Assembly: GCF_009827535.1 (NCBI RefSeq)
Contig: NZ_WTYN01000001.1
Location: forward strand, 930,001-994,000
Direction of reading: 5' to 3'
Origin: Qipengyuania oceanensis
GTDB taxonomy: Bacteria > Pseudomonadota > Alphaproteobacteria > Sphingomonadales > Sphingomonadaceae
DNA length: 64,000 bases
Position numbers and translations under genes: made by a program. Under the pieces are notes generated by a model. It searched no databases and was not told the origin of the DNA. It saw only the letters and a list, made by a program, of their open reading frames with translations. Of this stretch, positions 29,396 through 33,841 are shown piece by piece. Numbering within the stretch: position 1 is the stretch's first letter; each line of letters opens with the position of its first letter.

Positions 29396-30145
29396 CTAGC
29401 GCTCGAGCCGCTCGGTCAGCATGTGCGGGGTGGCCATGCCGAACGCCAATGCGACCGCGATTTCCATTGCGAGCAGACCGTTTGCCACCAGTGCGACGAT
29501 CGTCGCCGCTCCGGCGATCGCGATGCCCGTCGGCAGCGCCACTGCCCGCATGATGGCCGGGACACCGTAACTAGCGATCTGTCGTTGCTGGACGGGCACT
29601 GCGTGGGCGAGCACGAAGATCAGCCCGACCGCAAGCACCGGATCGAACAGCGCGACCGCGCCGAGCGAGAGGACGGCGTGACCCGAACCGCTCTCGCCGC
29701 GGACGAGCGCCAGTATCGCGAGCGCGACGCCGACCCCGCCCGCAACCGAAAACGCCACGACGAGTTCGCTCGGCACGCTCCCTGCGGTGATCTGCTCGAA
29801 GATCGCCGTCGTCTCCCGTCGCTGGAAGAGCGCGCTGCCGCCCGTCGCCAGCGCGGCGATGGCGAGCCGGCTCGTGGCCGAGAACGCGCAGTCGCTGCGC
29901 GCGAAATGCCAGGCCGACAAAGCGAGAAAGAGCACCAGCCCGGCAAGCGGCGCGGCAAGGAAAAGTGCCGCGATGGCTGCGCCCACTACGAGGTAGCCCG
30001 CCACGTGAAGCGCGCCGAAGCGCCGCAATTCGCCGTCCTGCTCGTCACCCGCGCCATGCGCGAAGCCGAGCACGTAGAGGATCAGCCCGCACGCCAGCGC
30101 ATAGTCGGGGCCTGCGACCTGTGCGGCGATCGCAGCAATCAGCAC
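29396..30145 (-). CDS. blh: Blh-type beta-carotene 15,15'-dioxygenase
   Basis: A 249-residue Brp/Blh-family membrane enzyme that cleaves beta-carotene into two retinal molecules. The conserved histidines stand in FAHGAGD (residue 30), SAWHFARSD, LAHAVPVQQRQ and TPHMLTERL. The equivalent four positions bind iron in characterised Blh. About seven hydrophobic helices are visible. The start is GTG at 30145, which leaves 29 residues before the first His, close to known Blh proteins; the frame remains open upstream to the rhodopsin stop. No good ribosome binding site is seen. It lies downstream of the rhodopsin gene, separated by a terminator-like hairpin. Confidence 0.85.
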   Translation of the reverse strand: MLIAAIAAQVAGPDYALACGLILYVLGFAHGAGDEQDGELRRFGALHVAGYLVVGAAIAALFLAAPLAGLVLFLALSAWHFARSDCAFSATSRLAIAALATGGSALFQRRETTAIFEQITAGSVPSELVVAFSVAGGVGVALAILALVRGESGSGHAVLSLGAVALFDPVLAVGLIFVLAHAVPVQQRQIASYGVPAIMRAVALPTGIAIAGAATIVALVANGLLAMEIAVALAFGMATPHMLTERLER

Positions 30146-30232: not shown

Positions 30233-31099
30233 TCAATCGCCGCGCCGCGACGCGACGGCCGAGCCCAGCGGCGAGGTTTCGAGCGCCTCGGCAGCCGGGA
30301 CATAGCCTTCCAGCGCGCTACGGCGCAGGACGTAGCGGCTGAGGATGATGCCGTAGATCAGCTTGGACGAGATGTCGGCAATCGAGAACAGCAGCTGGCG
30401 GACGACCACAACGTCGCCGGTGAAGCCGAGTTGCGGCAGCGCGTAGCCGATCGGGTAGAGACCCCAGGTGGCGAGGAAGTACCACCAGATGTTCTTGGGC
30501 CATCCCTTGAGCTCGGCCGGGCTGTTGGCGACACCAAGCGTGATGACGCCGCGGACCTCCACGATCAGCCACACGAAGAACACGGTGGAAATTACGCCCC
30601 ACAGATTCAGGCGCGACCAGTCGCCGGTCTCGCCGAACTGGCCGTAAAGACCCGTCCAGATCATCAGCAGGGCCGGTACGATCATGCGCAACACCCGCTT
30701 GTGCAGGTCGGGACGCGAGATACCGAAGGCGATTGCCAGCTGCGTCAGCAGGATCGGAACCGTGATGGTCCAGTTCCCGTATCGGAAAGCGTTGGTGAAG
30801 CTCTGGTTTTCAGCGAGCGGGCGATAGATGCCGTCGACCAGTTCGTAACTCGCCTGCCAGAGGCTGAACTCGCGCAGCAGGCTGAGGCCCGCCGATGCCA
30901 TGACGACGGCCGACAGGACGGGAACGATGCGATACCGCGGCGCGAGCTGCAGCGACATCATCAGGAAGAACAGGATGAAGGCGAAGTGGGCACCGTAGCT
31001 GACCATCAGGATCAGCGATCCGGTGGTGTATTGCCCGGCGGTGAGTTGAACCAGGTTTTCGATACTGCCGAACTGCGCGGCCGTTTCCATGGATATCAT
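30233..31099 (-). CDS. Microbial rhodopsin, NTQ type (predicted light-driven chloride pump)
   Basis: A 288-residue seven-helix retinal protein. The retinal-binding lysine is K246 in SIADISSKLIYGIIL, with D242 four residues before it. In helix C (FRYGNWTITVPILLTQ) the positions that are D97, T101 and E108 in green proteorhodopsin are N109, T113 and Q120, with identical spacing. NTQ is the motif of inward chloride pumps such as Nonlabens marinus rhodopsin-3. Without the acidic acceptor and donor, proton pumping is unlikely. AAAGGA precedes the ATG at 31099. Retinal would come from the adjacent blh. Chloride transport is inferred, not shown. Confidence 0.93.
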   Translation of the reverse strand: MISMETAAQFGSIENLVQLTAGQYTTGSLILMVSYGAHFAFILFFLMMSLQLAPRYRIVPVLSAVVMASAGLSLLREFSLWQASYELVDGIYRPLAENQSFTNAFRYGNWTITVPILLTQLAIAFGISRPDLHKRVLRMIVPALLMIWTGLYGQFGETGDWSRLNLWGVISTVFFVWLIVEVRGVITLGVANSPAELKGWPKNIWWYFLATWGLYPIGYALPQLGFTGDVVVVRQLLFSIADISSKLIYGIILSRYVLRRSALEGYVPAAEALETSPLGSAVASRRGD

Positions 31100-31217
31100 A
31101 CAAGTATCCTTTGATTGACGGGAGTTAGCTCCGTTGAATGGGCGCCACCGCTTTTCCCAAGCCCCCTTGGCCGCTGCGCGTAGCAACCAAATCGCCCCTG
31201 CGCGGTTATGTTCCTAA

Positions 31218-32525
31218 GTGCAGATCAACAGGGGTGTTTTTTTGTCGAGGCCACGCCCGATCAAGGATTTGTTCGGCTGGGCTCTCCACCGTTTGACGGC
31301 CAATTACTGGTCGCTGGCGCTCGGAGCTGTCCTGCTGGCGCCGATCGTTTTTGCCGCAACGCTGTATGCCGACCGCCAAGGCCTGACCGCCTGGCTGCTG
31401 GAACGCGACCTTGCGCTTGTTTCCTCGGCGGAAACCGCGCGCGATGCCGCGGCGGTCATTGCCGGCATCGACGCCGCCTTTCTGACGCTGTTCTTCTCGA
31501 TTTCGCTGATCGTGCTGACCATCGCCGCAGGCAATCTCGGCGTCCGGCTGATCGATCGCTGGCTCGCCAAGCGGCTGGTCCGGGTGTCGATTGCGGGCCT
31601 CGCCTTCACCTTGATCCACGCCGTGCTGACGATGAGCGCGATCGATGCCGAAGCCACGCTCGCGCAGACCCCGCTGGCGACCTTCGCCAGCTGCATCGTG
31701 CTGCTCGCCATCAACACCGTGATGCTCGCGGTCGCAACGCACGATCTCGGCCGCACGATGTTCGTCGACAAGGCTCTCCATGCCGTGTCACGGGACGGAC
31801 AGGAGCCGGCCATCGCCGTACGCGCGGGCGAACCGGCAAATTTGGCCCTGCCCTTCGCGATCACTGCACCGCGCAACGGATATGTCGAGGGCATCCATCT
31901 CGATCAGCTGGCCAATGCAGTCGAGGGCTGCGGCGAGGCACGCCTGACAGCCGCCCCCGGCCAGCACGTCCTCGAAGGGCAAGCCCTGATCGAAACCGCG
32001 AGCAAGTGCCCCGATCGCAAGGCGGTTCTCCGGGCCATTCCGATCGGGCGGTTCCGCAGCAACAGCCAGGGTCCGGTGTTCCAAATCCGCTTGCTCGTCG
32101 AAGTGGCCGCCCGGGCGCTCTCGCCGGCCGTCAACGATTTCTACACCGCGATCGCCGCCGTCGACGCGCTGACAGAAGTCGCTGGCGCGCATGTCGGCAA
32201 CTGGGTCGACGCGGATCGCAGCGTAGTCAGCAGCGAATATCCGAAGATCGCGTTGCCGGGGCAGGATTTTCGCGGCCTCTTCGAAGACCCGCTTGCCGCG
32301 CTGCGCCAGGCGGCAGCCGACTATCCTTCCGTCTCGATCCGGATCATCGGCAATCTCGAACGGCTCATCCACCTCCATACCGAGGGCAGGCCCGGCCTCG
32401 TGCGCTTTCTGCGAGAATATGCACAGCAGGTCCACCAGCAGGCGCGCGCGCGCTGCGAAATCGATAAGGACCGGTCGTCACTGGATGCCGCATTGGCCTC
32501 GTTTCAGGAAATTCCGCACGCATGA
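31218..32525 (+). CDS. DUF2254 membrane protein (first of a tandem pair)
   Basis: A 435-residue protein with four predicted membrane helices in the first 180 residues and a cytoplasmic C-terminal domain (VEVAARALSPAVNDFYTAI), matching DUF2254. The function of the family is unknown. The track begins at GTG 31218; a TTG at 31242 with AGGGG in front may be the true start. Its stop overlaps the ATG of the next gene by four bases. It is divergent from the rhodopsin gene, with a 118-base shared upstream region. Confidence 0.8.
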   Translation: MQINRGVFLSRPRPIKDLFGWALHRLTANYWSLALGAVLLAPIVFAATLYADRQGLTAWLLERDLALVSSAETARDAAAVIAGIDAAFLTLFFSISLIVLTIAAGNLGVRLIDRWLAKRLVRVSIAGLAFTLIHAVLTMSAIDAEATLAQTPLATFASCIVLLAINTVMLAVATHDLGRTMFVDKALHAVSRDGQEPAIAVRAGEPANLALPFAITAPRNGYVEGIHLDQLANAVEGCGEARLTAAPGQHVLEGQALIETASKCPDRKAVLRAIPIGRFRSNSQGPVFQIRLLVEVAARALSPAVNDFYTAIAAVDALTEVAGAHVGNWVDADRSVVSSEYPKIALPGQDFRGLFEDPLAALRQAAADYPSVSIRIIGNLERLIHLHTEGRPGLVRFLREYAQQVHQQARARCEIDKDRSSLDAALASFQEIPHA

Positions 32526-33841
32526 CTTCCGATATCCGCTTCTTCTGGGCCCGCCTCAACGCGAACTACTGGTTCTATCCGGCGCTGTTCTCGATCATCG
32601 CGGGCGTCCTGGCCTTTGTGATGATCTACCTCGACCGGGCGGGCTTTGCCGAGTTCCTCAACGAAACTGACTGGATCGTGCCGGCCCGTCCCAAGGGCGC
32701 TTCGGACATGCTGACGGTGATGGCCGGATCGATGATCGGCGTCGCCTCGACCGTATTCTCCATCACGATCGCAGCGGTGGCCTACGCCAGTGGCAATTAC
32801 GGCCCGCGCCTGCTGACCAATTTCATGGAAGACCGCGGCAACCAGCTCAGTCTGGCCACCTTCATCGGCGCCTTCGTCTATGCATTGATCGTCCTGCGCG
32901 CAGTGCGGGCCGAGGACGAGACGGCGAGCGACCTGAGCGATGCGACGGCGACTGCCCTGCCCGGCTTCGCACCGCAGCTATCCCTGCTGGTCGCTTACCT
33001 GCTGATGGCATTCTGCGTCGCGGTGCTGGTCTACTTCCTCAACCACATCCCCTCCTCGATCCGGATCAACCGGGTGCTGCAAGGGATCGGCTCGAGGCTC
33101 CTCGATGCGATCCGCGACGTCTATCCGGTAGAGGGCAGTTTCTCCGCCGCCGCCGAACACGATCCGGGCGAGCCGCTGACCGCCTTGGAAACCGGCTACG
33201 TCCAGCTCATCGATTTCGAGGATCTCGCCAAGGTCGCGCGCGATTGCGAAAGCGTCTTCACGCTCAAGGTGCGCACCGGCGATTTCGTGCACCGCGGCCT
33301 GCCGTTGCTCGATGTCGACGGGTGCGATCCCGCCGAGGTCGAGGACCGGGTTCGAAAGTGCTTTACCCTCGGAGCGACCCGGACACCCGAGCAGGACCCG
33401 CAATTCCTCATCGACGAGCTGGTCGAGATCGGCCTGCGCGCGCTGTCTCCCGGGATCAACGATCCCTTCACCGCGATTACCTCGCTGCACTGGCTCGGCG
33501 CGGCGACGTCGGAAATCGGACGGCGGGATCTGCGCAAGAACCTCTGCGGAGACGACGTCGAGGATTGTCCTCTCGTGCCGCTGACAGATGATTTCGAACA
33601 CTACGTGAAGCGCGGTTACGGCGCGATCCGTTCCGGCGTGGCGACCAATCCGATCGCCGCCGAGGTGATGCTCGACACGCTCGCCCATGCCGCCGCCCCG
33701 ATCGAGGACCGGGACCGGCAGGCACTGCTGCGGCGCGAAGGCCAGCTGCTGGCCGACCAGGCGGCGTTGGCACTGGCCGGGCCGGATCTCGACCGTTTCC
33801 AGAAACGGCATGCCGAGTTCGACCGGACCTTCTGGGACTGA
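32522..33841 (+). CDS. DUF2254 membrane protein (second of a tandem pair)
   Basis: A 439-residue paralogue of the preceding protein. It has an N-terminal four-helix region (ANYWFYPALFSIIAGVLAFV and later helices), SITIAAVAYASGNYGPRLL, and the cytoplasmic ALSPGINDPFTAI segment that matches ALSPAVNDFYTAI in its neighbour. The ATG overlaps the upstream stop (ATGA), so the two are translationally coupled and may form a hetero-oligomer. No function is known for DUF2254. Confidence 0.85.
   Translation: MTSDIRFFWARLNANYWFYPALFSIIAGVLAFVMIYLDRAGFAEFLNETDWIVPARPKGASDMLTVMAGSMIGVASTVFSITIAAVAYASGNYGPRLLTNFMEDRGNQLSLATFIGAFVYALIVLRAVRAEDETASDLSDATATALPGFAPQLSLLVAYLLMAFCVAVLVYFLNHIPSSIRINRVLQGIGSRLLDAIRDVYPVEGSFSAAAEHDPGEPLTALETGYVQLIDFEDLAKVARDCESVFTLKVRTGDFVHRGLPLLDVDGCDPAEVEDRVRKCFTLGATRTPEQDPQFLIDELVEIGLRALSPGINDPFTAITSLHWLGAATSEIGRRDLRKNLCGDDVEDCPLVPLTDDFEHYVKRGYGAIRSGVATNPIAAEVMLDTLAHAAAPIEDRDRQALLRREGQLLADQAALALAGPDLDRFQKRHAEFDRTFWD

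Follow-up and report, generated by a model that had tools for sequence, protein, structure and literature searches.

A predicted light-driven inward chloride pump of the NTQ rhodopsin class in Qipengyuania oceanensis

The window, a stretch of 64,000 nucleotides of Qipengyuania oceanensis DNA, contains a rhodopsin gene whose product, judged from its sequence, is very probably a light-driven inward chloride pump of the NTQ class. We suggest that such a pump would work as follows. Retinal bound to K246 would absorb green light. In the dark state N109 and T113 would hold a chloride ion beside the protonated Schiff base, where it would take the place of the carboxylate counterion of the proton pumps. 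Photo-isomerisation would then move the chloride beyond Q120 into the cytoplasm, and its successor would come in from outside via the polar cavity of N103, Y107, Q154, E157, R234 and Q235. As negative charge is carried inward, the cell interior would become more negative, which could strengthen the proton-motive force or help the chloride and osmotic balance. We infer the ion, the direction, the route and the colour by analogy with studied relatives; either physiological use is conjectural.

The rhodopsin gene and its chloride-pathway residues

The gene for the predicted pump (ClR) is located at 30233..31099 on the minus strand. The frame is open from the ATG start at 31099 through 288 codons to the stop, without internal stop or frameshift, and the product of 288 amino acids matches the Pfam domain Bac_rhodopsin (PF01036) with 103.2 bits (E = 1.8e-29, cut-off 24.6). 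Neither the rhodopsin nor the two DUF2254 proteins encoded next to it received a name from NCBIfam. Compared with its closest named relative (L002), the gene differs at 40% of the third, 9% of the first and 5% of the second codon positions, and the differences to L003 are likewise mostly at third positions. This substitution pattern is that of purifying selection.

The motif residues N109, T113 and Q120 and the retinal lysine K246 stand where the first-pass annotation had placed them and align with N98, T102, Q109 and K235 of the N. marinus chloride pump (NmClR). The spacing which it had likened to that of DTE proteorhodopsins is also found, as the four residues share alignment columns with the D, T, E and K of five DTE rhodopsins. 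For a wider residue test we took 25 residue numbers from passages of the ClR structure paper (PMC4999514), 24 of which match the letters of the NmClR sequence; residue 242, Thr in the text and Ile in the sequence, disagreed and was dropped. Twelve residues of NmClR are tied in these passages to chloride binding or transport, namely N98, T102, Q109, R95, D231, K235, N92, Y96, Q143, E146, R223 and Q224, and the window rhodopsin is identical at all 12.

We aligned 31 distinct NTQ rows including the window protein, leaving out L021, L023, L025, L029, L034 and re-fetched copies as duplicates or near-duplicates. N, T and Q (bacteriorhodopsin, BR, positions 85, 89 and 96) are kept in all 31 rows, and the same holds for each of the retinal lysine K246 and the counterion pair R106/D242. 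The cavity residues corresponding to N92, Y96, Q143, E146, R223 and Q224 of NmClR are kept in 31, 31, 31, 29, 30 and 31 of the 31 rows. Since the motif with its lysine is retained throughout this clade and the substitutions relative to L002 are biased to third positions, we regard it as homologous and not as a chance likeness. The stack of three aromatic residues (3 omega) is present as well, with Y24, W81 and Y92 at the positions of F15, W72 and Y83 of NmClR. Substitutions relative to NmClR include K2 to G11, F15 to Y24, K46 to R55, A50 to V59, S91 to T102 and T228 to S239; the K46A variant of NmClR pumps about as the wild type (PMC4999514). The position which tunes the colour of proteorhodopsins is Leu117 in the window protein, and a table of PMC7979833 gives 518 nm for the NTQ ClR of S. 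baekryungensis; together these suggest absorption of green light.

Related rhodopsins and their distribution

A sequence search among solved structures returned at the top N. marinus ClR entries and their variants (six distinct sequences, 180-184 bits). Next came, 13 bits below ClR, the sodium pump ErNaR with three chains at 169-171 bits. KR2 reached about 115 bits, and the other sodium pumps and the xanthorhodopsins had at most 129 bits. The window rhodopsin is 39.7% identical to N. marinus ClR, the one solved ClR. With an AF2 model of moderate confidence (pLDDT 66, 17 closely related rows), Foldseek found ClR/NmHR entries as the ten best matches at a TM of about 0.54 and ErNaR as the 11th. 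The chloride-pump class proposed in the first-pass annotation is thus supported by the motif and the pathway residues, and both searches rank chloride pumps first; as ErNaR follows closely in sequence and in fold, the class assignment rests mainly on the residues.

N. marinus ClR, also named NM-R3 or NmHR (PDB 5g28, 6ab9, 5b2n), shares with the window protein the NTQ motif, the lysine, the Arg/Asp pair and the residues of the chloride site and of the extracellular cavity, and furthermore the A-P-basic A-B loop, the three-aromatic stack and the C-terminal GYVPA segment. It differs in its flavobacterial origin, and in flavobacteria the NTQ ClR is often accompanied by NDQ and DTE pumps (PMC4831467), whereas the window rhodopsin is the only one found in its genome. 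The nearest other rhodopsins are the NDQ pumps (KR2, ErNaR) and the DTE xanthorhodopsins, which differ from the window protein in the motif residues; its identity is 32% to an NDQ row (L057) and 26-29% to the five DTE rows.

The proposed placement in a rhodopsin phylogeny came out in part. The 31 alphaproteobacterial NTQ rows form one clade (98/100), in which the window rhodopsin joins that of Qipengyuania aestuarii (100/97). The tree holds one NmClR row and one NDQ row, both on long branches, and joins them with the NTQ clade at a fork without a clear branching order.

An NTQ pump in an alphaproteobacterium is no novelty in itself, since the class has already been described there, including the same order; NTQ chloride pumps are known, and the window protein is a further case. 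The legend of Fig. 3 in PMC4585134 names ClRs of Citromicrobium bathyomarinum, Citromicrobium sp. JLT1363 and Sphingopyxis baekryungensis, the NTQ isolates listed in PMC4831467 include Citromicrobium, Fulvimarina and Parvularcula, and Erythrobacteraceae sp. HL-111 has an NQ-type rhodopsin according to PMC5468372. The Fulvimarina pelagi rhodopsin FR is described as an NTQ chloride pump with chloride-dependent colour (PMC4585134, PMC5877348, PMC9728251). We found no open-licence paper which unites rhodopsin, NTQ and Erythrobacteraceae; PMC7979833 is a match for chloride-pumping rhodopsin together with Erythrobacter. The Citromicrobium and S. baekryungensis pumps have the motif of the window protein and come from other genera, and FR is like it an alphaproteobacterial NTQ rhodopsin; we liken all of them to it by published description. 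Citromicrobium and S. baekryungensis we take to belong to the same order as the window organism, F. pelagi presumably to a different alphaproteobacterial family. A Citromicrobium MAG (L006) encodes a protein 84% identical to the window rhodopsin.

We scanned a species-genome collection with a pattern-based search, which finds close relatives only, and obtained 18 named loci with proteins 75-89% identical to the window rhodopsin over the alignment. The nearest of them are from Qipengyuania and Erythrobacter, which bears out the alphaproteobacterial origin assumed at first. Sixteen of the loci are labelled Erythrobacteraceae; L006 (Citromicrobium) and L017 (Sphingomonas) are labelled Sphingomonadaceae. 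Within the family of the window organism the NTQ gene is present in 17 of 298 genomes, and one more (G026) has fragments only. The decayed gene of G026 (L117) consists of two fragments (query 7-73 and 228-286) and is adjoined by the DUF2254 pair. Seven genomes form a second NTQ clade with proteins 64-71% identical to the window rhodopsin. Among 385 genomes sampled across the class 98.0 bits was the ceiling for all matches except the window's own protein, and the best of them were of DTE type; the Fulvimarina and Parvularcula isolates in the list of PMC4831467 are published exceptions to this absence. Genome G099 encodes two NTQ rhodopsins, 82% (L014/L023) and 69% (L062) identical to that of the window, and the gene of the former (contig C7) has an in-frame TAG near the N-terminus.

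The window genome, estimated to be 100% complete in 14 contigs, has exactly one gene matching PF01036 and no match to the photosynthetic reaction centre profile PF00124. Nine of the 17 NTQ genomes are without another rhodopsin type (G000, G129, G099, G091, G183, G248, G006, G210, G161). Reaction-centre genes are found in four of these nine (G099, G006, G210, G161), which leaves five, the window genome included, with the NTQ pump and neither another rhodopsin type nor a reaction-centre match. Because both are missing there, an effect of light on the energy state of such a cell could be ascribed more easily to the chloride pump. The remaining 8 of the 17 genomes also carry DTG, DTV, DTT, NDQ or DTE rhodopsins; L050-L056 and L066 in ClR-bearing relatives have the motifs DTV, DTT and DTG, and G284 has an NDQ gene (L057) besides its NTQ gene. 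These type counts leave out L067 in G061, for which no motif was matched.

Gene neighbourhood and alternative readings

Divergent to the rhodopsin gene and 118 bases away from it lies a gene for a DUF2254 membrane protein, here DUF2254a (31218..32525, plus strand; PF10011, 162.2 bits). A second one, DUF2254b (32522..33841, plus strand; PF10011, 358.9 bits), overlaps its end by 4 bases. On the other side a blh-like gene of the Brp/Blh beta-carotene 15,15'-dioxygenase family (29396..30145, minus strand, putative GTG start) follows 87 bases downstream of the rhodopsin gene on the same strand. In 18/18 named loci DUF2254a divergently adjoins the pump gene, though the contig ends within it in L009 and it is damaged in L010 and L019; blh follows the pump gene in 18/18. 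nadA is present in 14 of the 18; the contig of L009 is too short, and in L006, L014 and L017 the usual neighbours nadA, OYE and EamA were not seen within the sequence examined. In several pump-less genomes of the family DUF2254b, with or without DUF2254a, lies beside nadA (L103, L112, L113, L116, L119, L124, L126, L127, L129, L130). Therefore the pump gene and blh were either inserted into this site or lost from it.

We compared L006, L014 and L017 by blastn, which was used in place of tblastx, as the latter gave 29, 56 and 76 short matches outside the trio of DUF2254a, rhodopsin and blh. L006 and L014 share a single stretch of about 3 kb, which is the trio, and only pieces of the trio are common to L006 and L017. 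L014 and L017 have in common the pump and DUF2254a stretches and, at a different distance and on the opposite strand, another one of about 800 bases. Both trees make sisters of L006 and L014, with support of 100/97 for the pump and 100 for DUF2254a. L017 joins Aurantiacibacter luteus in the pump tree (92/83, not starred) and stands beside Aurantiacibacter rows in that of DUF2254a (82, not starred). As the trio is shared at differing settings, these comparisons together with the two trees fit a trio which would have moved as a unit at least twice. The additional stretch near the trio (L014:3671-4461, L017:19-794) is 69.6% identical in opposite orientation in otherwise different settings, and its letters look to us like those of a LysR-type regulator.

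All 10 genomes of the closer pump clade have DUF2254a next door, and G026 with its decayed pump gene retains it. In the second NTQ clade DUF2254a was found at 360 bits or more in 0 of 7 genomes. Eight of the 19 genomes which carry DUF2254a have no pump, and DUF2254a is broken beside an intact rhodopsin gene in L010 (no match over residues 203-347) and in L019 (frameshift near residue 206). A strict partnership with the pump is not supported by these counts; a functional tie between the two is possible. The constant rhodopsin neighbourhood is the only functional lead for the DUF2254 family which we met; among open-licence papers, one on protein knots names DUF2254. The AF2 model of DUF2254a has a pLDDT of 84.5, and Foldseek gave 462 matches for it at E up to 10, of which none reached E 0.001. 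The VIA rows for the model are mostly helical repeats, designed or natural. Its residues 198-281 resemble 2dsj (Z 10.5, rmsd 2.1, 73 residues) and human thymidine phosphorylase 1uou (Z 9.4, rmsd 2.8, 78 residues), and we draw no function from either match. More speculatively, the trio might be a mobile unit whose DUF2254a deals with the ions or the voltage which the pump creates, for example as a regulated return path for chloride, and the resulting light-driven, controlled chloride circuit would be the only light-energy system of the cell; we consider this rather unlikely.

The region between rhodopsin and DUF2254a contains an imperfect dyad, GGAACATAAC-N12-ATTTGGTTGC (31183..31214, minus strand), which is similar in many relatives in the alignment and is possibly an operator or a promoter. 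Its strict pattern occurs once in the window genome. A search of 19 genomes found it in 2, with a single copy in each and 0 control matches, and the strict form is thus not family-wide. A sigma-70 promoter search near the rhodopsin gene found none, and one terminator-like site was observed there against 1.0 expected. The conserved intergenic boxes are not spaced as the consensus of an EcfG-type promoter would require.

How well do other readings of the rhodopsin compare with the inward chloride pump? It could bind anions as an NTQ rhodopsin and nevertheless have another main job, that is, as a light sensor or as a pump for another anion, perhaps together with the DUF2254 protein. The constant divergent position of DUF2254a in the 18 named loci, the recurrence of the trio in other settings and a genome without other rhodopsin or reaction-centre match would be in line with such a role. 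However, the residues of the ClR pathway are kept up to the cytoplasmic side (Q120, S63, A53-P54-R55), and DUF2254a is found in pump-less genomes and broken beside intact rhodopsins. We judge a sensor or a pump for another anion to be improbable.

Smaller still is the probability of an outward sodium pump (NaR) or a proton pump which merely carries NTQ. ErNaR is indeed the next nearest solved relative, and G284 of the same family has its NDQ gene plus an NTQ gene. An NDQ sodium pump requires however an Asp at BR position 89, which is T113 here, and the carboxylates of the DTE/DTX proton pumps at position 85 and usually also at 96, acceptor and donor of the proton, are replaced by N109 and Q120. 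Moreover, T102D abolished the pumping of NmClR (PMC4999514). The motifs TSA and TSD of archaeal and cyanobacterial halorhodopsins, as defined in a table of PMC5877348, differ from the N-T-Q of the window protein, and this identity was discarded. A gene which is decaying or unexpressed appears to us equally remote. The patchy presence in the family, the remains in G026 and the in-frame stop in the relative G099 speak for it, but the window gene has neither stop nor frameshift and differs from L002 and L003 mostly in third codon positions. An inward chloride pump thus stays the preferred reading.

Retinal supply and a possible antenna

The Blh neighbour, presumed from its family to be the retinal maker, matches PF15461 with 58.3 bits (cut-off 28); its 84.2 bits to TIGR03753 are below the cut-off of 95.25. 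In the 66A03 enzyme, His21, 78, 188 and 192 are essential and the Ala mutants have less than 5% activity (PMC9227343). The Blh neighbour keeps H30, H80 and H181 and has Gln at the fourth position, which was mapped to His192 by spacing and alignment. The source of retinal is therefore not certain. Gln is found at this position in all 23 aligned ClR-linked Blh rows, the window included; of the 12 aligned Blh rows from DTE rhodopsin loci, 10 have His and 2 Gln. A filter for score and length left L010, L035 (second NTQ clade), L040 (DTE) and fragments out of these counts, and the Blh of L035 reads differently at the fourth position. RPE65-type oxygenases were not found in 8 of the 10 genomes of the closer clade (all but G000 and G183). 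Since Blh is the only candidate for retinal formation found in these eight, it is probably active despite the Gln.

The window genome has matches to lycopene cyclase, phytoene synthase and the Blh family. It has also three matches to RPE65-family carotenoid oxygenases (G000, contigs C1 and C2), and 15 of the 17 other genomes searched have none. In L031, L033 and L034 (G006, G210, G161) the NTQ gene occurs together with reaction-centre genes, and no Blh or RPE65-type match was found in these genomes.

In xanthorhodopsin a glycine, G156, opens the retinal pocket to the carotenoid. Its counterpart in the window rhodopsin is G168, and Gly stands at this position in 39 of 39 aligned rows. PDB entry 9jow is by its title a myxol-bound structure of NM-R3, and the window genome has four matches to the broad hydroxylase family PF04116. 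A carotenoid antenna on the window rhodopsin is possible.
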